64,000 nucleotides of DNA from Salipiger bermudensis (GTDB lineage: Bacteria > Pseudomonadota > Alphaproteobacteria > Rhodobacterales > Rhodobacteraceae): assembly GCF_019801965.1 (NCBI RefSeq), contig NZ_JAHVIA010000001.1:186001-250000 (forward strand). The letters are read 5' to 3'. The translations under genes were made by a program, and so were the position numbers. This document shows, piece by piece, positions 10,836 through 20,106 of the stretch. Under the pieces are notes generated by a model. The model was not told the DNA's origin and did not search any database. It saw only the letters and a list, made by a program, of their open reading frames with translations. The first letter of the stretch is position 1; each line of letters begins with the position of its first letter.

Positions 10836-11558
10836 TCAGATCGGATCGATTTCCTGGAACGCGTTGCGCAGCGCCTCGGACCAGGCGGCGCTCATGCGGG
10901 CGAAGCCCTCGTCATCGGCCTCGATCCGGCGGGTGCGGCCGATCTCGAAAGCGTCGGCCTCGATCACCGTGAAATCCAGCGGCATGCCGACGCTGAGATT
11001 CGAGCGCAGGGTCGAATCCATCGACAGCAGCACGGCCTTCTCGGCATCGGCGAGCGACGTTCCCGGCTCGATGACCCGGTCGAGGATCGGCTTGCCGTAT
11101 TTGTGCTCGCCGATCTGCAGGAACGGCGTGTCGGCGGTGGCCTCGATGAAATTGCCCTCGGGATAGATCAGGAACATGCGCATCGGGCCGCCCTTGCGCT
11201 GCCCGGCGACGATCATCGAGGCGGTGGCGTTCTGGCTCATCCGCTCCATCTTGGCGGAGACTTCCGAGGTCACGTCAGACAGGGTCGCGCCGACGATCTC
11301 GGCCACCTGCAGCATGGTCGGCGCGCGCAGGATCGAGCGTTCGTTGTCGGGCTCTTCGATGGCATCAGTGAGCCGCGCCATGGTGGTCTGGGTGATCGAC
11401 AGGGAACCGGCGGTCATGATGCCGATGGCGCGCTCGCCCGGCTGCTCGAACAGGAACATCTTGCGATAGGTCGCGATGTTGTCGAGACCGGCATTGGTGC
11501 GGGTGTCCGACAGCAGGACAATGCCCGCGTCGAGAAGCAATCCCACGCAATAGGTCAT
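10836..11558 (-). CDS. Anbu (ancestral beta subunit) proteasome-homologue peptidase
   Basis: 240 residues of the Ntn-hydrolase proteasome fold. The ATG at 11558 gives MTYCVG, so removal of Met exposes Thr as the nucleophile without a propeptide. Asp18 (LLSDTRTNAG) and Lys33 (ATYRKMFLF) supply the rest of the Thr-Asp-Lys catalytic set. AGTSLADAEKAVLLSMDST-like and NLSVGMP segments match the family. The Met at 11579 is rejected since it would bury the Thr. It lies 84 bp after a transglutaminase-like gene on the same strand, in the order typical of Anbu loci, and probably degrades or processes peptides made by the neighbouring ATP-grasp system. No ATPase partner is present. Confidence 0.88.
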   Translation of the reverse strand: MTYCVGLLLDAGIVLLSDTRTNAGLDNIATYRKMFLFEQPGERAIGIMTAGSLSITQTTMARLTDAIEEPDNERSILRAPTMLQVAEIVGATLSDVTSEVSAKMERMSQNATASMIVAGQRKGGPMRMFLIYPEGNFIEATADTPFLQIGEHKYGKPILDRVIEPGTSLADAEKAVLLSMDSTLRSNLSVGMPLDFTVIEADAFEIGRTRRIEADDEGFARMSAAWSEALRNAFQEIDPI

Positions 11559-11642
11559 GGCCGAATCCTCTTGGGGCACCGTGCCCCGACTGGCGTCTTA
11601 CTGCCGTTGCCCGGTTCGGGCAATGGCCGCGCGCCGGCGTGG

Positions 11643-12473
11643 TTACTGCTGTTGCTGCTGCCCGGTGGCGACCACCACCTCGACCTCGAGATGCTCTTCC
11701 GGCGTGCTGCCCTGCACCACGCCACGGATCGGTGCCGCGTCCTGCGCGTCATATCCCGACCCAAGGCGGATATAGCGCTCGTCCGGGCAGCAACGATTGG
11801 CTGCATCGAAGCCGACCCAGCCGAGTTCCGGCACGAAGAGCTCGGCCCAGGCGTGGCTGGCCTCGTGCTGCTGGCCGTCTTCATCCGCCTGCAGGTAGCC
11901 GGTGACGTAACGCGCCGGGATGCCGGCCGCATGGGCCACGGCGATCAGCGCGTGGGCGTGATCCTGGCACACGCCCTTGCCGCCCGAAAGCGCCTCGGCG
12001 GCGGTGGTGTGGGCCTTGGTCTCGCCCGGCGCGTATTCGATCGCCTCCGTCACCGCCTTGGCGAGCGCGTGGGCGCGGTCGAGATCGCTGGCGCCGGTCA
12101 TGCCCCCGAGCGCCGAGGCAGAGAGATCCTTGAGATCCTGATCCGGGCGCACCTGCCGGGTCGAGCGCAGGTAGAGCGAGGCCGGCCCCTTCTCACGGTG
12201 GTCGCGGAGCACCCCGAAGAGATCGACGGTCTCGACCTCGCCGATGACCTCGACGGTCAGCGTCTCGAGCGGGCCGCGCCAGCTCGCCAGCGCGGTGCGG
12301 TCGCCCGCCCCGTCGGTGAACTCGGCGCCGCGCATGGCACCTTCGGTCTTCACCTCCCAGGACAGAACCTTCTGCGAGGCGCAATCCGCCGGCCACAGCC
12401 GCAGCGATTGCACCACGCCGCGCACCGGATGGTCGAACTTGTAGCGGGTGGTATGTCTGACACTCAGTTTCAT
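11643..12473 (-). CDS. Transglutaminase-like cysteine protease of the Anbu/alpha-E/ATP-grasp cluster
   Basis: 276 residues. An N-terminal bacterial transglutaminase-associated beta domain (about 1-85, MKLSVRHTTRYKFDHPV) precedes the transglutaminase core with Cys169 (GGKGVCQDHAHA), His207 (EASHAWAEL) and Asp223 (GFDAANR). No signal peptide, so it should act in the cytoplasm. The protein ends in a short glutamine run. The ATG overlaps the stop of the upstream alpha-E gene (ATGA), making co-translation likely. Members of this family in such clusters are predicted peptidases or peptide ligases rather than classic protein cross-linkers. Confidence 0.9.
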   Translation of the reverse strand: MKLSVRHTTRYKFDHPVRGVVQSLRLWPADCASQKVLSWEVKTEGAMRGAEFTDGAGDRTALASWRGPLETLTVEVIGEVETVDLFGVLRDHREKGPASLYLRSTRQVRPDQDLKDLSASALGGMTGASDLDRAHALAKAVTEAIEYAPGETKAHTTAAEALSGGKGVCQDHAHALIAVAHAAGIPARYVTGYLQADEDGQQHEASHAWAELFVPELGWVGFDAANRCCPDERYIRLGSGYDAQDAAPIRGVVQGSTPEEHLEVEVVVATGQQQQQ

Positions 12474-13423
12474 GCCGGTATCCCGTGAAGATAGACGTCC
12501 TGAACCGTGGTCGCGAGCCCGGCGTTGCGGGCCATGAAGCGCCCGAGGAACTCGTGCAGGCCCTCGTCGAAGATGTCGTCGACGGTGATGTTGTGCAGAT
12601 CGTCGAGCAGCTGGTGCGCGGCGTCCTGCGCCCGCGAGCCGGTCTGGTAATTCGCCGCGATGTTGTCGAGGTGATCGCAGGTCCACTGCACGCAGGACAG
12701 CAGCGAACGCGGGAACTTGCGGTTGAGGATCAGCAGGTGGGCGATCTTCTGCGCGGTGATCTCGCCGGTATAGGTCCAGTTGAAGGCGCGCTGCGCGGTC
12801 ATCGATTGCAGGAGCAGCGCCCATTGGCTCTGGTCGAGCCCGGAGCCCACGTAGGACAGCGACGGCAGCAGCACGTAGTACTTCACGTCGATCAGACGCG
12901 CGGTGTTGTCGGCGCGCTCGATGGCGGTGCCGATGCCCATGAAGTCATAGCCGTCATTGCGCAGCTGCGTGGCCTGCAGGCAGCCCCGGACGAGATAGCA
13001 GGTGCGCATCGTCCAGTCTGTCAGCTCGCTGGTCATCAGCTTGCTGCGCTCGACGCGCTGCAGCTGCTTGAGCTCCTGGTAGGCGCCGTTGAGCGCGTCC
13101 CAGACCGGCGAGGTCAGCGCCGTGCGCACCACCCGGCCGTTCTCGCGCGCGGCGTTGATGCAGGACAGCACCGAGGACGGGTTGTCGGCATCGAAGAACA
13201 GGTAGGTCTCGATGTTGCGCTGGTTGGGCTCGCCATATTTGTCGAGGAAGGGCTCGAGCGCGCCCTTAGCCTGAAGCACGGCCTCCCAGTCGTTGCGATA
13301 GCCGCCCGAGGGATCGGGCAGCAGCGCGTTGCGGGCCCCCACCTCAAGCAGGCGGCCGGTGGTTTCGGCCCGCTCGAGATAACGGGCCATCCAGTAGAGG
13401 TGATCTGCGGTACGGCTCAGCAT
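12470..13423 (-). CDS. Alpha-E domain protein (DUF403)
   Basis: 317 residues, mostly helical, spanning one alpha-E domain. The start MLSRTADHLYWMARYLERAE is the family hallmark, and the C-terminal third contains the conserved HLLILNRKFPRSLLSCV block. The fold is known only as an all-alpha domain that accompanies circularly permuted ATP-grasp proteins and transglutaminases; its biochemical job is undefined. It starts 7 bp after the ATP-grasp stop and overlaps the transglutaminase gene, so the three form one translational unit. Confidence 0.9.
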   Translation of the reverse strand: MLSRTADHLYWMARYLERAETTGRLLEVGARNALLPDPSGGYRNDWEAVLQAKGALEPFLDKYGEPNQRNIETYLFFDADNPSSVLSCINAARENGRVVRTALTSPVWDALNGAYQELKQLQRVERSKLMTSELTDWTMRTCYLVRGCLQATQLRNDGYDFMGIGTAIERADNTARLIDVKYYVLLPSLSYVGSGLDQSQWALLLQSMTAQRAFNWTYTGEITAQKIAHLLILNRKFPRSLLSCVQWTCDHLDNIAANYQTGSRAQDAAHQLLDDLHNITVDDIFDEGLHEFLGRFMARNAGLATTVQDVYLHGIPA

Positions 13424-13430
13424 GGTCTTC

Positions 13431-14855
13431 TTACTCCGCCAGGACCCAGGTGTCTTTCACCCCGCCGCCCTGCGACGAGTTCACCACCAGCGACCCTTCG
13501 GTCAGTGCCACGCGGGTCAGCCCCCCGGGCACCAGTTCGATCTTTTCTCCCACGAGGCAGTAGGGTCGCAGGTCGACATGGCGCGGCGCGATCCCCTCCT
13601 CCACGAAGGTCGGACAGGCCGAGAGCGCCAGCGTCGGCTGCGCGATGTAGTTCTCGGGCTTGGCGCGGATCTTGGCCTCGAAGGCCTCGATGGTGGACTT
13701 GTCGGCCTTCGGCCCGACCAACATACCGTATCCGCCCGAGCCGTGCACCTCCTTCACCACCAGCTCCGGCAGGTGCTCGAGCACGTATTTGCAATCGTCC
13801 TTCTTGGCGCATTGCCATGTCGGCACGTTCTCGAGCACCGGCTCCTCGCCGAGGTAGAAGCGCACCATCTCGGGCACGTAGGTGTAGATCGCCTTGTCGT
13901 CGGCAACGCCCGCGCCCGGTGCCGAGCAGATCGTTACGCCGCCGGAGCGGTATACGTTCATCAGCCCCGGCACGCCCAGCATCGAGTCGGGGCGGAAGCA
14001 CAGCGGGTCGAGGAAGCTGTCGTCGATCCGGCGATAGATCACGTCGACCTTCTTGGGGCCCTCGGTGGTCTTCATCCAGACGAAATCGCCCTCGACGAAG
14101 AGATCCTGCCCCTCGACCAGCTCGACCCCCATGAGGTCGGCCAGGAAGGAGTGCTCATAATAGGCCGAGTTGAACTGGCCCGGCGTCAGGATGACGATAT
14201 TGGGCTCGTTCTGGCACTTCTTCGGCGCCACCGAGGCCAGCGTCTTTTTCAGCAGCCCGGCATAGCCGTCGACCGGCGCGATGCGGTTCTCCATGAAGAG
14301 CTGCGGGAACATGCGCATCATGATCTCGCGGTTCTGCAGCATGTAGCTGACGCCCGAGGGCGTGCGACAGTTGTCCTCGAGCACGTAGAACTGATCGGGG
14401 CCGGTACGCACGAGGTCGACGCCGACGATGTGGCTGAACACCCCGCCCGGCGGCATGAAGCCGATCGCCGCCTTCTCGTAGGCTTCGTTGTTGGTCACGA
14501 GATGCTCAGGGATGCGCCCGGCGCGGATGATCTCGCGGCGCCCGTAGACATCGCAGAGAAACGCGTTGAGCGCGGCGGCGCGCTGGCGGATGCCGCGGTC
14601 GAGCTTGCGCCATTCCGAGGCGGTCAGCACGCGCGGGAACATGTCGAACGGGATCAGCCGTTCCGGATCACCGCCCTCGCCATAGACCGCGAAGGTGATG
14701 CCGACGCGGCGGAACAGGTCCTCGGCTTCGGATTGTTTCAGGCTGCGGAGCTCGGAGGGCATCGACCGATACCACTGCTCGAGGCTCTGGTAGGCGGCGC
14801 GGACGTCCGCGCCGTTCATCATCTCGTTGAAGATCGGGGCTTGCTTGGCGCTCAT
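13431..14855 (-). CDS. Circularly permuted ATP-grasp protein (DUF404/DUF407 type)
   Basis: 474 residues typical of the circularly permuted ATP-grasp type 1 family. Landmarks include FNEMMNGADVRAAYQSLEQW at the start, IPFDMFPRVLTASEWRKLDRGI near 75, YVLEDNCRTPSGVSYMLQNR around 175, and the C-terminal KEVHGSGGYGMLVGP and HVDLRPYCLV. Such enzymes are predicted amide-bond ligases that activate a carboxylate with ATP; the substrate is unknown. The ATG at 14855 has GAAGGGAAG about 6 nt upstream and is preferred to a Met 11 codons earlier. It is the first gene of the four-gene Anbu cluster. Confidence 0.9.
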   Translation of the reverse strand: MSAKQAPIFNEMMNGADVRAAYQSLEQWYRSMPSELRSLKQSEAEDLFRRVGITFAVYGEGGDPERLIPFDMFPRVLTASEWRKLDRGIRQRAAALNAFLCDVYGRREIIRAGRIPEHLVTNNEAYEKAAIGFMPPGGVFSHIVGVDLVRTGPDQFYVLEDNCRTPSGVSYMLQNREIMMRMFPQLFMENRIAPVDGYAGLLKKTLASVAPKKCQNEPNIVILTPGQFNSAYYEHSFLADLMGVELVEGQDLFVEGDFVWMKTTEGPKKVDVIYRRIDDSFLDPLCFRPDSMLGVPGLMNVYRSGGVTICSAPGAGVADDKAIYTYVPEMVRFYLGEEPVLENVPTWQCAKKDDCKYVLEHLPELVVKEVHGSGGYGMLVGPKADKSTIEAFEAKIRAKPENYIAQPTLALSACPTFVEEGIAPRHVDLRPYCLVGEKIELVPGGLTRVALTEGSLVVNSSQGGGVKDTWVLAE

Positions 14856-15324
14856 TGTCTTCCCTTCGCTCTGCGCTTCAACGTCCAACTAATCTGCCGC
14901 AAGTGAAAGGCCTCAGGTAAAAAAATTTGTCCAGTTCGCCAATTCTCGCCCAATTCTTGAGCGCTGCCGGATTCGGCGTTTTGCATAGGATAACCACCTA
15001 AACGCATGGATCGGACCAAATTGCCGCAATTTTTCGCACCATTATTATGCAAACGCAGGAATTTTCGCCTACAAATTGCGCGCCACGCCGCGATCGGGAA
15101 ACACCGGGGCAAATTGACGTGGCGACCGGGGAACCCCCGGCTAAGCAGTTACCGCGCTCCAGACGGGGCGTGAACAACGGGGATGCCACGGCGGCAAGAG
15201 GCTCAAGCCCGACACCCGCCCTGGCTTACAAAAACGAAGCGGCGAGCAGTCAATTTCTGCTCCGCCCGGCAATGCGTCGGGCGGGTACGGGAGGATCGCG
15301 CCGCGTACAAGGGAAGTGACCTTA
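14856..15324. promoter_or_regulatory. 469-bp divergent control region between the ATP-grasp gene and urtA
   Basis: No open frame with a ribosome site was found. The left 200 bp are distinctly AT-richer than the surroundings, as expected for promoters. A candidate NtrC-type dyad lies at 15036-15050. GGGAAG is placed about 8 nt before the urtA ATG. No sigma-54 promoter (GG-N10-GC with flanking TGGCAC/TTGC) was convincingly seen. Confidence 0.5.
15036..15050. promoter_or_regulatory. Candidate NtrC-like dyad upstream of urtA
   Basis: GCACC-N5-TATGC matches the NtrC pattern GCACC-N5-GGTGC at 8 of 10 core positions. It lies about 275 bp upstream of the urea transporter start, a distance compatible with an enhancer-type site. 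Urea uptake is commonly under nitrogen control. The right half-site is poor, so this is tentative. Confidence 0.3.
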
Positions 15325-16614
15325 ATGATCAAGACATTGAAACTCTCGGGTGTGGCCGCTGCGGCCCTGATCGCCGCAGGCGCAGCCAACGCCCAGGACG
15401 TGGAATGCCCCATCAAGGTGGGCGTGCTGCACTCCCTGTCCGGCACCATGGCGATCTCGGAGACCACTCTGAAAGACACCATGCTGATGCTGATCGAAAA
15501 GCAGAACGCCGATGGCGGCCTGCTCGGCTGCGAGCTCGAAGCCGTGGTCAAGGATCCGGCCTCCGACTGGCCGCTCTTCGCCGAGAAGGCGCGCGAGCTG
15601 ATCTCGAACGACGAGGTCGACGTGACCTTCGGCTCCTGGACCTCGGCCAGCCGCAAGGCCGTGCTGCCGGTTCTCGAAGAGCTGAACGCGCTGTATTTCT
15701 ACCCGGTCCAGTACGAGGGCGAGGAGAGCTCGAAGAACGTGTTCTACACCGGCGCCGCCCCGAACCAGCAGGCGATCCCGGCCACCGACTATTTCCTCGA
15801 CGAACTCGGCGTCGAGAAGTTCGCCCTGCTCGGCACCGACTACGTCTACCCGCGCACCACGAACAACATCCTCGAGTCCTACCTGAAGTCGAAGGGCATC
15901 GCCGAGGAAGACATCTTCGTCAACTACACCCCCTTCGGTCACTCCGACTGGTCGACCATCGTCTCCGACGTCGTGGCGCTGGGTGAGGACGGCAAGCAGG
16001 TCGGCGTGATCTCGACGATCAACGGCGACGCCAACATCGGCTTCTACAAGGAACTCGCGGCGCAGGGCATCTCCGCCGACGACATCCCCGTCGTGGCCTT
16101 CTCGGTCGGTGAGGAAGAGCTCTCGGGCCTCGACACCTCGAACCTCGTCGGCCACCTCGCCGCGTGGAACTACTTCATGACCGCCGAGTCCGAAGCCAAT
16201 GACGAGTTCATCGCCGCATGGCACGAATTCATCGGCGACGAGGCCCGCGTGACCAACGACCCGATGGAAGCCCATTACATCGGCTTCAACATGTGGGTGA
16301 ACGCGGTCGAAGCGGCCGGCACCACCGATGTCGACGCGGTGCGCGAAGCGATGTGGGGCCAGGAGTTCCCGAACCTGACCGGCGGCACCGCCGTAATGGG
16401 CGTGAACCATCACCTCTCCAAGCCGGTGCTGATCGGCGAGATCCGTGCCGACGGCATGTTCGACATCATCTCCTCGACCGAGCCGGTCCCGGGCGATGCA
16501 TGGACCGACTACCTGCCGGAATCCGCTCCGCTCAAGTCGGACTGGAAGGAGCTCGAGTGCGGCATGTACAACACCGAGACCTCGACCTGCGTCCAGCTCA
16601 AGTCGAACTACTGA
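15325..16614 (+). CDS. urtA: Urea ABC transporter, periplasmic substrate-binding protein UrtA
   Basis: 429 residues. A Sec signal peptide (MIKTLKLSGVAAAALIAAGAANAQ) gives a mature protein starting near residue 26 with CPIKVGVLHSLSGTMAISE, the characteristic UrtA start within the Leu/Ile/Val-binding fold. Other family landmarks are PVQYEGEESSKNVFYTGA and TDYVYPRTTN. It binds urea (or short amides) in the periplasm and delivers it to UrtBC. The ATG at 15325 is selected because GGGAAG is about 8 nt upstream; a GTG nine bases earlier would be too close. It heads urtABCDE. Confidence 0.95.
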   Translation: MIKTLKLSGVAAAALIAAGAANAQDVECPIKVGVLHSLSGTMAISETTLKDTMLMLIEKQNADGGLLGCELEAVVKDPASDWPLFAEKARELISNDEVDVTFGSWTSASRKAVLPVLEELNALYFYPVQYEGEESSKNVFYTGAAPNQQAIPATDYFLDELGVEKFALLGTDYVYPRTTNNILESYLKSKGIAEEDIFVNYTPFGHSDWSTIVSDVVALGEDGKQVGVISTINGDANIGFYKELAAQGISADDIPVVAFSVGEEELSGLDTSNLVGHLAAWNYFMTAESEANDEFIAAWHEFIGDEARVTNDPMEAHYIGFNMWVNAVEAAGTTDVDAVREAMWGQEFPNLTGGTAVMGVNHHLSKPVLIGEIRADGMFDIISSTEPVPGDAWTDYLPESAPLKSDWKELECGMYNTETSTCVQLKSNY

Positions 16615-16709
16615 TCTGACGCTCTGACAGCGTTAGCGGCGGGCGCTCCTTCATGGCGCCCGCCGCCCGAGTTTCCTCGAATTTCCAAGACCTTTCGCAA
16701 AGGCTGCCC

Positions 16710-18674
16710 ATGCTGCGCGCGCTCTTCCTCGCCCTCGCGCTGATCCTCGGCCTGTGCCTGCCCGCCTCGCGGGCCGTGGCGCAGGATGCCGGACAGGATC
16801 TGCAGGCGATCCTCCAGACCCACGCCGAGGAGGTCGCCAGCCCCGGCCGCCGCAGCGTCGGCACGGTGATCGACGCCCTCACCGCCTCCGGCCTGCCCGG
16901 GGTGCCGCTGTTCCTCGAACGCTGGGCCGACCGCAGCGTCTACCAGCGCAGCGGCGACGGGCTGTTCTACTACGCCGAGAAGCAGGGCAACGAGTATGCG
17001 CTCTCCGACATCGCCACCGGCGAAGCCGCCGGCACCGCGCCAGCCTCCGAGATGACCGAGATCCGCCCCAACGGCGGCGTGCGCCGGGTCATCGGCACCG
17101 CACTGGTGCAGTTCCAGCTCTCCGATCCCGACATCGCCCGCCGCACCGCCGCGCTCGATGCCATCTCCCGCAGCCCCGAGGCCGACCAGCTCGAGCCGCT
17201 GCGCAACTCGATCGAGGGCGAGACCGATGCCGGGCTGCTGGCCCGCAAGGAGCGGCTCGTGGGCATGCTCGCGGCGCGCTACGGCGACACGCAAGAGGCG
17301 CGCATCGCCGCCATCGAGGCGCTCTCCGATGCCATCGCCGTCGATGTGCGCGCGGTGCTGAACCAGATCCTGACCACCCGACCGGGCGTCGCAGCCGAAC
17401 TGCCCGAGGGCGCCAACATCGCCCGCACCCTCACCCCCGGGGACGATCTGACCGAGGCCGAAGCCTATGCCCAGCTGGTCGAGGCCGGGCTCGCCCCCGC
17501 CGCCCAGACGCCGGCCCAGATCAAGGCCGCGCTGACCGACAACATCGACGGCGGCAGCGTCGGCGGCGTCCCCATCGGTCAGCTCGCAACCGAGGCCGGG
17601 CGCGATCGTGCCTATGCCGCCCTTGCCGACGCCGGCACCGTGCCAGCGCGGGTGACCGAGGACGATGTCGAGACAGCCCTCGCCTCGCACGTGTTCTACG
17701 AGGAATACACCGAAAGCGACTCCGCGATCACCGACGCCGCGCGCGAAGCGCTCGACGAGATCGAGACCCGCGTGGCGCTGAACCAGGCGCTGGATCTCGG
17801 GCTCGACGCGCTGTCGCTGGCCTCGATCTATTTCCTCGCCGCCATCGGCCTCGCCATCACCTTCGGGGTGATGGGGGTGATCAACATGGCCCATGGCGAG
17901 TTCATCATGATGGGCGCCTATACCGGCTACGTGGTGCAGCAGATCATCCCCGATTACACCCTGAGCCTGATCGTGGCGTTGCCGCTGGCCTTCGCGGTGA
18001 CCTTCGGCGCCGGCGTGGCGATGGAGCGGCTGGTGATCCGCTGGCTCTACCACCGCCCGCTCGAGACCCTGCTCGCCACCTTCGGCATCTCCATCGCGCT
18101 GCAGCAGCTGGCGAAGAACATCTTCGGCACGCAGGCCCGCCCGCTGACCTCGCCCTCCTGGCTCGACGGCGCCTGGGTGATCAACGACGTGGTCTCGATC
18201 GCCAATATACGCATCGCGATCTTTGTGCTGGCGCTGATCTTCCTCGGGCTGATCCTCTTCGTGCTGAACAAGACCCGTCTCGGCCTTGAGGTCCGCGCGG
18301 TGACGCAGAACCCCGGCATGGCCGCCTCGATGGGCATCAACCCCGACAAGATCAACATGCTGACCTTCGGCCTCGGCTCAGGCATCGCCGGCATCGCCGG
18401 CGTCGCCATCGGGCTCTACGCCAAGGTCACCTCCGAGATGGGCGCCGACTACATCGTGCAGAGCTTCATGACCGTGGTCGTGGGCGGCGTCGGCAATGTC
18501 TGGGGCACGCTCGCCGGCGCCGGGCTGATCGGCATCCTCCAGAAGGGCATCGAGTTCTTCAACCCGTCCAACACGCTGGCGGCGCAGACCTACATGATCC
18601 TCTTCATCATCCTGTTCATCCAGTTCCGCCCCAAGGGCATCGTCGCCCTCAAGGGCCGTGCGGCGGGAGACTGA
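16710..18674 (+). CDS. urtB: Urea ABC transporter permease UrtB (long form)
   Basis: 654 residues. A signal peptide (MLRALFLALALILGLCLPAS, then RAVAQ) leads a large N-terminal extracytoplasmic region of about 350 residues with helical repeats of HEAT-like look. The C-terminal 270 residues are a branched-chain-type permease with membrane helices beginning at LALDLGLDALSLASIYFLAA, the GVMGVINMAHGEFIMMGAYTG motif and RAVTQNPGMAASMGI in the cytoplasmic EAA-like loop. It forms the channel with UrtC. The ATG at 16710 restores a clean signal peptide after AAAGG. It follows urtA by 95 bp. The 193 bp to urtC hold a repeat element. Confidence 0.93.
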   Translation: MLRALFLALALILGLCLPASRAVAQDAGQDLQAILQTHAEEVASPGRRSVGTVIDALTASGLPGVPLFLERWADRSVYQRSGDGLFYYAEKQGNEYALSDIATGEAAGTAPASEMTEIRPNGGVRRVIGTALVQFQLSDPDIARRTAALDAISRSPEADQLEPLRNSIEGETDAGLLARKERLVGMLAARYGDTQEARIAAIEALSDAIAVDVRAVLNQILTTRPGVAAELPEGANIARTLTPGDDLTEAEAYAQLVEAGLAPAAQTPAQIKAALTDNIDGGSVGGVPIGQLATEAGRDRAYAALADAGTVPARVTEDDVETALASHVFYEEYTESDSAITDAAREALDEIETRVALNQALDLGLDALSLASIYFLAAIGLAITFGVMGVINMAHGEFIMMGAYTGYVVQQIIPDYTLSLIVALPLAFAVTFGAGVAMERLVIRWLYHRPLETLLATFGISIALQQLAKNIFGTQARPLTSPSWLDGAWVINDVVSIANIRIAIFVLALIFLGLILFVLNKTRLGLEVRAVTQNPGMAASMGINPDKINMLTFGLGSGIAGIAGVAIGLYAKVTSEMGADYIVQSFMTVVVGGVGNVWGTLAGAGLIGILQKGIEFFNPSNTLAAQTYMILFIILFIQFRPKGIVALKGRAAGD

Positions 18675-18867: not shown

Positions 18868-20106
18868 ATGACCCGAACCTTCCTGACGCAGAACCGCTCG
18901 GTGTTCTGGTTCCTGCTGGCGCTGGGGATCTTCGCCCTGATCGTCACCGTGCTTTCCGAGGCCGCCGGCAACGGCATGATCTCGACGAGCTTCGTCAAGA
19001 CGCTCGGCAAGACGCTCTGCCTGATGCTCGTCGCCGTGGCGATGGACGTGGTCTGGGGCTACACTGGCATCCTCAGCCTCGGCCACATGGCCTTCTTCGG
19101 GCTTGGCGGCTACATGATCGGCATGTGGCTGATGTATGCCCGCACCGAGATCATCGTCACCGAGAGCCTGCTCGCCGCCGCCATCCCGCCGACCCCGCAG
19201 GAAATCCACGACTCCATCGGCACACAGATCTTCGGCGTGGTGGGCAGCTCGGAATTCCCCGCGGTATGGATCTTCGCCCACAGCTTCTGGCTGCAGATTG
19301 CCATGGTCGTGCTGGTCCCCGGCCTGCTGGCGCTGGTCTTCGGCTGGCTCGCCTTCCGCAGCCGGGTCACCGGCGTCTATCTCTCGATCCTGACTCAGGC
19401 GATGACGCTGGCGCTGTCGCTCTACCTGTTCCAGAACGAGAGCGGGCTGCGCGGCAACAACGGCCTTTCGGGCCTGCAGAACCTGCCCGGGCTCGACGAC
19501 GTGCCGCAGGCGACGCTGTCGATCGCCTTCTTCTGGGCCTCGGCCGTGGCGCTTGGGCTGGGCTATGTGCTCTTTGCCTGGGTCACCTCGGGCAAGTTTG
19601 GCTCGGTGATCCGCGGCATCCGCGACAACGAGAGTCGGGTGCGCTTCCTCGGCTACCATGTCGAGGGCTACAAGCTCTTCGTCTTCACCCTGACCGGCAT
19701 CGTCGCAGGCATCGCCGGCGCGCTCTACTACCCGCAGGCCGGCATCATCAACCCGAACGAGATCGCCCCCATCGCCTCGATCTACCTCGCGGTCTGGGTC
19801 GCCATCGGCGGGCGGGGTCGGCTCTACGGCGCGGCGCTCGGCGCGGCCTTCGTGTCGCTGCTGTCGAGCTGGTTCACCTCCGGTGCGGTGCCCTCGGTGC
19901 CGCTCGGCTTCTACACCATCCAGTGGACCGACTGGTGGCTGGTGCTGCTCGGCGTAAGCTTCGTCGCGGTGACGCTGCTGGCGCCCAAGGGTATCGGCGG
20001 GCTGTTCGATCTCGTCACCACGCGCCACCCGGTGCCCGAGCGGATCGGCGATTTCGGGCCCGACAAGGGCGCGCGCCGCACCGTCGAGGGGGAGGAAGAG
20101 AAATGA
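18868..20106 (+). CDS. urtC: Urea ABC transporter permease UrtC
   Basis: 412 residues with about ten hydrophobic segments of the LivM-type permease fold. The family motif VWGYTGILSLGHMAFFGLGGYMIG-type region is at about 57-80, and the cytoplasmic coupling loop VIRGIRDNESRVRFLGY lies in the second half. It pairs with UrtB to move urea across the inner membrane. The stop overlaps the urtD start (ATGA), so UrtC and UrtD are translationally coupled. The ATG at 18868 is preceded by GCGAAAGGG. Confidence 0.94.
   Translation: MTRTFLTQNRSVFWFLLALGIFALIVTVLSEAAGNGMISTSFVKTLGKTLCLMLVAVAMDVVWGYTGILSLGHMAFFGLGGYMIGMWLMYARTEIIVTESLLAAAIPPTPQEIHDSIGTQIFGVVGSSEFPAVWIFAHSFWLQIAMVVLVPGLLALVFGWLAFRSRVTGVYLSILTQAMTLALSLYLFQNESGLRGNNGLSGLQNLPGLDDVPQATLSIAFFWASAVALGLGYVLFAWVTSGKFGSVIRGIRDNESRVRFLGYHVEGYKLFVFTLTGIVAGIAGALYYPQAGIINPNEIAPIASIYLAVWVAIGGRGRLYGAALGAAFVSLLSSWFTSGAVPSVPLGFYTIQWTDWWLVLLGVSFVAVTLLAPKGIGGLFDLVTTRHPVPERIGDFGPDKGARRTVEGEEEK

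Follow-up and report, generated by a model that had tools for sequence, protein, structure and literature searches.

The proteasome superfamily includes a little-understood branch, Anbu, which we take to be the family COG3484 and for which structures are at hand, with no substrate or partner in the literature searched. The Anbu operon is already known in Pseudomonas, Yersinia and other bacteria (PMC5666114, PMC6376114; these and all further papers are cited from excerpts). According to one or both of these papers, the Anbu assembly is an open lock-washer in Yersinia or a dodecameric open ring, the Yersinia ATP-grasp protein frees phosphate from ATP, no AAA ATPase goes with the operon, peptide synthesis has been predicted for it (Iyer 2009, as quoted there) and protein tagging has been proposed. 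Both also cite a rise of Anbu in nitrogen-limited Pseudomonas putida (Hervas 2008). In this study, we analysed the Anbu operon of Salipiger bermudensis, a member of the Rhodobacteraceae, at positions 10836–14855 of a 64,000-nucleotide stretch of contig NZ_JAHVIA010000001.1, termed the window throughout. The gene set is not new, because it has been published as the Anbu operon; the novelty lies in the control region of the operon. In our best reading, to which we assign a probability of roughly 0.6, the operon would belong to the nitrogen-starvation (Ntr) response, with its ligase and hydrolases cycling an amide- or peptide-linked compound.

That clusters of this kind are under nitrogen control has been reported before. 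In Burkholderia cenocepacia, the cluster I35_5080-83, which contains a transglutaminase-like (TG) protein, is dependent on NtrC and sigma-54, with log2 changes of -9.4 and -6.0 for two genes, and is listed there together with urt and urease (PMC5491218). A TG-like gene of P. putida and its neighbours (PP2685-PP2687), a possible Anbu operon, rise 6.6 to 11.1-fold under nitrogen limitation (PMC3325844), and COG3484 is found in predicted sigma-54 regulons (PMC12316311). The NtrC regulon of Rhodobacterales includes urease and urt (PMC5343134); the families of the Anbu operon are not mentioned in the available portions of the main text of PMC5343134 or PMC8443478. NtrC of Rhodobacterales lacks the GAFTGA motif, and that of Rhodobacter capsulatus acts through sigma-70 (PMC10274813). 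Marine metagenomes show a correlation of urea domains with DUF403/404/407 and Bact_transglu_N (PMC3597751), and nothing firm on the Anbu operon was found in the excerpts of PMC8407117, PMC4264754, PMC12096838, PMC8777916 and PMC5748707. The rlo operon of Pseudomonas aeruginosa has a protease, an ATP-grasp protein and a TG-like protein in common with the Anbu operon, and differs in its RimK-like ATP-grasp, its membrane-bound inactive transglutaminase and a retropepsin-like protease in place of Anbu (PMC12239564, in part). The literature search returned no statement of a conserved Ntr-type box common to the Anbu operon and a urea transporter in Alphaproteobacteria, and no statement placing the Anbu operon in an alphaproteobacterial Ntr regulon.

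Gene content and control region of the operon

The operon of the window agrees with that of Pseudomonas and Yersinia in the four-gene order, the Thr/Asp/Lys residues of Anbu, the ATP-grasp, alpha-E and TG-like partners and the lack of an AAA ATPase, whereas it differs in standing divergent from a urea-transporter operon, with Ntr-type boxes in between. The minus strand carries, in order, a circularly permuted (CP) ATP-grasp ligase (13431–14855; PF14403 546 bits, PF04174 485 bits), the all-helical, two-repeat alpha-E protein (12470–13423; PF04168 295 bits), a TG-like Cys-His-Asp protein with Bact_transglu_N (11643–12473; PF01841 85 bits, PF08379 70 bits) and Anbu, an Ntn-hydrolase relative of HslV and the proteasome beta subunit (10836–11558; PF00227 24.9 bits only). 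The co-directional genes are joined by a gap of 7 bp (13424–13430), an overlap of 4 bp (12470–12473) and a gap of 84 bp (11559–11642). These junctions, the catalytic residues given below and the known linkage of a ligase with putative hydrolases of no known product, which matches the published Anbu operon, had all been described in an initial annotation made from the sequence alone, and all were confirmed.

Anbu matched five solved sequences, three of them Anbu by name, and scored 264 bits with the designed Anbu 5loy and 245 bits with Anbu 5nyj; its N-terminal Thr2 and the Asp18 and Lys33 of the proteasome active site are present in the sequence and in the alignment to solved Anbu. The TG-like protein, which matched PDB entries 3isr and 6g49, carries Cys169, His207 and Asp223, and this triad was invariant in all 62 aligned sequences (the window copy and 61 of 80 fetched copies). 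The ATP-grasp protein is of the circularly permuted type 2, as indicated by PF14403 and by a nearly full-length alignment to PDB 3n6x at 652 bits, and is 99% identical to its counterpart in S. bermudensis AmN7-7. The NCBIfam search at E 0.001 gave zero matches for the four operon proteins. The view that Anbu lacks an ATPase partner was borne out for the genes beside the operon: no AAA ATPase occurred among nine scanned proteins (four operon genes and five neighbours), and none recurred beside operon-type loci among 101 Anbu-centred loci. Unlike the self-compartmentalising proteases HslVU and 20S, Anbu has no such partner encoded beside it.

The divergent control region common to the Anbu operon and urtA spans 460 bp (14856–15315). 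Other strains keep this divergent arrangement in 21 loci, where the region measures 448–559 bp, and its overall sequence is poorly conserved between loci. When the 400 bp preceding the ATP-grasp gene in 81 loci were searched for motifs de novo, one dominant motif emerged, the 17-bp palindrome TGCcyAAawTTrgGCA, at a median position about 120 bp before the start codon. The motif was placed in 63 to 68 of the 81 upstreams by unconstrained, 17-bp and 21-bp palindromic forms, and in 54 and 55 of them at other palindromic widths. A threshold of 13.5 bits was used, corresponding to the 99% level of the best score in Markov-resampled sequence. Three boxes lie in the control region of the window, each also a genome site with at most one mismatch: the 17-bp near-palindrome CGCCCAATTCTTGAGCG (14947–14963; 17.4 bits), CGCACCATTATTATGCA (15035–15051; 17.5 bits) and the weaker CGCCTACAAATTGCGCG (15066–15082), which is not among the sites of at least 13.5 bits.

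The first two boxes are the only sites in the window that reach the threshold. Since both precede the ATP-grasp gene, nothing was found that separates anbu from the other three genes, in line with the initial annotation. No constant hairpin or promoter was seen by eye in the TG–Anbu gap among 76 gaps measured. In two Alloyangia loci (L172 and L174), a palindrome resembling the box, CGCCCGAAATTTGGGCR, sits in this gap and might there place anbu under separate control.

Occurrence of the box and its probable reader

The 17-bp palindrome is most likely an NtrC (nitrogen-starvation) box, as predicted from sequence, because it was found independently at urtA and also stands before glnBA, glnK and nifR3-ntrBC. 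The ATP-grasp-trained matrix gave sites of at least 13.5 bits in 15 of 20 urtA upstreams, which were hand-picked from 131 genomes, are mostly strong matches and in no case adjoin Anbu. Independent motif search on these 20 upstreams alone recovered the same palindrome, tGCcCAAtaaTTGgGCa, in all 20. Sites reaching the threshold were found in 20 of 39 ATP-grasp upstreams of the host family, a set that may overlap the training set in species, and in 13 of 39 from other alphaproteobacterial families, which share no family with it; the control upstreams of other conserved open reading frames (ORFs) at the same loci gave 3 of 273 (Fisher p ~1e-10 for other families versus controls). The two R. capsulatus loci (L215 and L226) have boxes of 17.5 and 18.1 bits. 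The pattern resembles the enterobacterial NtrC site.

Nine sites with at most one mismatch were found in the host genome (4.83 Mb), versus five for a reversed control pattern. The region from the ATP-grasp gene to urtA holds three of the nine. Another precedes glnB-glnA by about 110 bp, and one more is found some 95 bp ahead of nifR3, behind which come ntrB and ntrC; three further inexact sites precede an ABC-transporter operon, a LacI-like regulator (a label read from the ORF only) and a gene without NCBIfam match. The clustering of three of nine sites (binomial 7e-11) is partly circular, because the pattern was trained on loci including that of the window, and the independent evidence is therefore the matches at urtA, glnBA, glnK and nifR3-ntrB. 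Exact sites occurred in 140 of 198 genomes of the family, versus 27 of 198 for the reversed pattern. In the 30 examined loci with an exact box, the gene behind it was nifR3 with ntrB next in five, the ATP-grasp gene in three, glnB-glnA in two, glnK in two and urtA in one. The host NtrC-like protein lacks GAFTGA; such a protein and the 17-bp upstream box are likewise features of the Rhodobacterales Ntr regulon (glnBA, nifR3-ntrBC, glnK, urt, ure). Taken with the motif tests, this protein suggests that NtrC is the most likely reader of the box, and on these sequence grounds the Anbu operon is very probably under Ntr control.

Several observations weigh against this assignment or the wider reading built on it. 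The sole exact site of the host genome, C14:13789-13805 (L255:3990), precedes a cysH-like gene, uvrC stands behind nine of the 30 exact sites and a further eight have no assigned gene; an Ntr regulon does not readily account for the uvrC and cysH sites. The host glnBA site scores only 12.1 bits, and host GlnA alone passes its NCBIfam cut-off, GlnB, NtrB and NtrC being best matches below theirs. Among the other-family ATP-grasp upstreams, 26 of 39 have no site of 13.5 bits, as is the case for all 19 Anbu genes that stand apart from the ATP-grasp gene. The B. cenocepacia cluster may be a second-type system rather than an Anbu operon, because it includes a large TG protein. The Anbu papers, in the portions available, report Anbu expression unchanged under various other conditions (one of the two, PMC6376114 / PMC5666114), Anbu of three species without detected activity on proteasome substrates, and no detected complex of Anbu with its operon partners in Yersinia bercovieri (PMC6376114, PMC5666114). 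In a class sample of 240 evenly drawn genomes, general linkage with urt was rejected, the two lying within 5 kb in one of 63 Anbu genomes and the arrangement being confined to few genera.

The uvrC and cysH sites, together with the clade-limited tight linkage to urt, would be accommodated by some other regulator with a TGC-N11-GCA site, the urea adjacency then being a chance arrangement inherited by few genera. We judge this very improbable: in other genomes the box precedes nifR3-ntrB, glnBA, glnK and urtA, just the targets that an Ntr regulator should have, and a different regulator sits poorly with the de novo recovery of the motif in every urtA upstream.

Two side observations concern these sites. 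The box lies 141–206 bp before the DNA-repair gene uvrC in L283, L291, L297, L300, L301, L303, L304, L306 and L310, with the site near position 1509, and the cysH-like gene behind the C14 box adjoins a sulfoquinovose-synthase-like gene.

Linkage of the operon and the neighbouring urea genes

The four-gene linkage is not due to chance, because 67 of the 101 Anbu-centred loci (100 fetched and the window) carry the ATP-grasp, alpha-E and TG genes all upstream of Anbu on the same strand, and the linkage described in the initial annotation thus extends to related genomes. Its description as a complete system holds for the window, where the whole set is intact, and less well elsewhere: in four loci the ATP-grasp, alpha-E and Anbu genes are accompanied by a TG-family ORF of 1100–1155 aa nearby, eight have these three genes without TG by the criteria used, and 22 are otherwise arranged. 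In this last group, Anbu may stand by itself, converge on TG-alpha-E-ATP-grasp (L105) or adjoin a large TG (L096), and some loci are truncated by contig ends. Among 80 named loci picked by the ATP-grasp gene, alpha-E and TG were never missing, and Anbu was present in 75; of the five loci where it was not found, two are short contigs (9.0 and 5.0 kb). Near kin are over-represented in this set because it comprises the best 80 of 587 relatives. In the class sample, Anbu was found in 63 and alpha-E in 83 genomes, and alpha-E occurred in 62 of the 63 Anbu genomes versus 21 of the 177 without Anbu.

That co-occurrence runs counter to the idea that Anbu is an independent hydrolase merely co-transcribed with the other three genes. 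The 22 other arrangements, which include Anbu alone and some contig-end cuts, and the lack of a partner complex in Y. bercovieri (the excerpts of PMC6376114 / PMC5666114) would agree with such independence, which we nevertheless consider distinctly unlikely.

The initial annotation had proposed a comparative search for further constant neighbours; clustering of ORFs of at least 60 aa across the 101 loci, with shadow ORFs removed, revealed no constant fifth gene beside the operon. Clusters present in at least three loci outside the host family were considered, and a first clustering pass, dominated by antisense shadow ORFs, was discarded. No exporter, regulator or tailoring enzyme recurred at a fixed place among these ORFs, and ABC-transporter ATPase-like ORFs lay at scattered places in 26 of the 101 loci. 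Six loci (L118, L119, L120, L121, L122 and L123) have distant, out-of-operon Anbu genes with 34–38% identity, whose neighbours are varying subsets of phasin, ClpS, a Clp-type AAA protein and D-Ala-D-Ala carboxypeptidase, an unfoldase and adaptor neighbourhood for this Anbu subtype.

On the plus strand, the control region is followed by urtA, the periplasmic substrate-binding protein of a urea ABC transporter (15316–16614; PF13433 517 bits; name inferred from family and operon order), by a urtB-like permease gene (16653–18674; PF02653 152 bits; named from operon order) and by a urtC-like ORF (18868–20106) that 21 of the 80 named loci retain next to urtA and urtB. In the urtB-like protein, an N-terminal part of about 380 residues precedes the permease domain (385–652 of 673). 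The divergent arrangement with urtA is kept in 21 of the 80 named loci, which belong to Salipiger, Alloyangia, Citreicella, Allosediminivita, Puniceibacterium, Roseivivax and Thalassococcus. As a general rule the linkage was also rejected in the family sample, where the distance is at most 5 kb in only four of 139 Anbu genomes (G000, G326, G305 and G399).

Presence of Anbu and urtA in the same genome was compared separately. In the class sample, urtA occurred in 38 of 63 genomes with Anbu versus 13 of 177 without, counting strong UrtA matches only (51 genomes kept of 116 with any match). This count is uncorrected for genome size and kinship, and the family-level test with a control was therefore preferred. 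Among the 198 family genomes, 107 have Anbu and urtA, 32 Anbu only, 24 urtA only and 35 neither (odds ratio 4.9, p 1e-6), whereas for another transporter of the window, taken as a control, the odds ratio was 1.6 with Anbu (p 0.27) and 2.3 with urtA (p 0.046); the family-level tests ignore kinship.

The host also differs from Pseudomonas and Yersinia in a second, DUF2126-containing system near urease (L164:3653-10619). It is the one further ATP-grasp and alpha-E pair of the host genome, and its gene order is a TG-DUF2126 protein, a fused ATP-grasp-alpha-E protein and another TG. The ATP-grasp, alpha-E and TG families are common to both systems, while the ligase/alpha-E fusion, the extra amidoligase domain and the absence of Anbu beside it distinguish the second. 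A stretch of 3.7 kb with four other ORFs separates the end of its last gene from the ureD ORF, after which come ureA, ureB and ureC; a box just before the ureD ORF scores 12.8 bits, under the 13.5 level. Both ATP-grasp/alpha-E copies of the host genome are thus near urea genes, which is suggestive only because such nearness is rare in the class sample. A rule placing the second system beside urease was rejected, since alpha-E lies within 50 kb of ureC in only three genomes, with 47 of 240 carrying both (urease-alpha matches below 85 bits dropped; 68 places in 64 genomes kept). In L152:6326-17181 the two systems adjoin: after ATP-grasp, alpha-E, TG and Anbu come a large TG, an ORF that fuses alpha-E and ATP-grasp, and one more TG.

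Proposed function and biological significance

Under our preferred reading, NtrC would bind the TGC-N11-GCA boxes when fixed nitrogen is scarce and turn on the operon and the divergent urea transporter, so that the operon transcript would rise. The ATP-grasp enzyme would form an amide (peptide-like) bond, spending ATP, with alpha-E as its probable partner or substrate holder. The TG-like enzyme and Anbu would in turn hydrolyse amide bonds in this class of compound, and the freed nitrogen-bearing units would pass to glutamine synthetase. Ligase and hydrolases would then act on one compound in the service of nitrogen recycling, and this amide-salvage function is offered as a tentative proposal that may well prove wrong.

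The alpha-E protein is all-helical in an AlphaFold2 model (67 sequences, mean pLDDT 88). No PDB sequence match was found for it, and no clear relative of solved fold emerged from searching by structure, the NIT (NasR) helical sensor fold having been considered as a candidate for a match along the full protein. Its two halves are homologous by direct comparison of a single pair (E 2e-7) and by profile comparison (96.6% probability), and each contains an ERA[ED]xTxRL motif; the protein is therefore a tandem internal duplication. It could hold a ligand between the two equivalent Glu-Arg motifs.

Pup-proteasome recycling in actinobacteria offers an analogy for a different use of the same genes. 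In that case, the ATP-grasp enzyme would add a tag or amino acids to proteins under nitrogen starvation and Anbu would degrade or de-tag them. The combination of a ligase, a proteasome homologue and Ntr-type control in one operon would suit protein turnover of this kind, as would the tagging proposal in PMC6376114 / PMC5666114 (in part). The initial annotation had likewise suggested that a small peptide tag may be made; nothing in our analysis shows tag synthesis. No constant gene for a tag was found among neighbouring ORFs of at least 60 aa, shorter ORFs not being searched, and no AAA unfoldase is encoded beside the operon. The reported inactivity of Anbu from three species on proteasome substrates and the open lock-washer of Yersinia (excerpts of PMC6376114 / PMC5666114) also argue against tagging, which we regard as unlikely.

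A dedicated peptide-like metabolite (a signal, metallophore or store), trimmed by TG and Anbu and with nitrogen control only as the trigger, is rather unlikely in our view. It would agree with the ligase and hydrolases sharing one operon, with the added amidoligase DUF2126 of the second system and with the prediction of Iyer quoted in PMC6376114 / PMC5666114 (in part). Such a pathway would lack an exporter, regulator or tailoring enzyme at a fixed place, the ABC-transporter ATPase-like ORFs being scattered, and it can be argued that a nitrogen-containing store is uneconomic under nitrogen limitation.

A more specific form of salvage would be an unrecognised Ntr-controlled pathway beside urea uptake, in which ATP-grasp and alpha-E couple a scarce nitrogen compound of amine or urea origin to a carrier, and TG and Anbu, the latter as a small-molecule amidase and not a protease, free usable nitrogen. 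We hold this to be highly unlikely as it stands; if true, the small-molecule amidase role would explain why Anbu has no ATPase and why proteasome-type activity was not seen for it.

The overall interpretation of the initial annotation is upheld in part; it did not mention the 460-bp divergent region, the Ntr-type boxes in that region or a second system close to urease. If the operon does belong to the alphaproteobacterial nitrogen-starvation regulon, the growth condition and the likely compound class would become clear. The question of what Anbu cleaves would then be directly testable, for example in readily handled laboratory strains such as R. capsulatus, both analysed loci of which carry the box.

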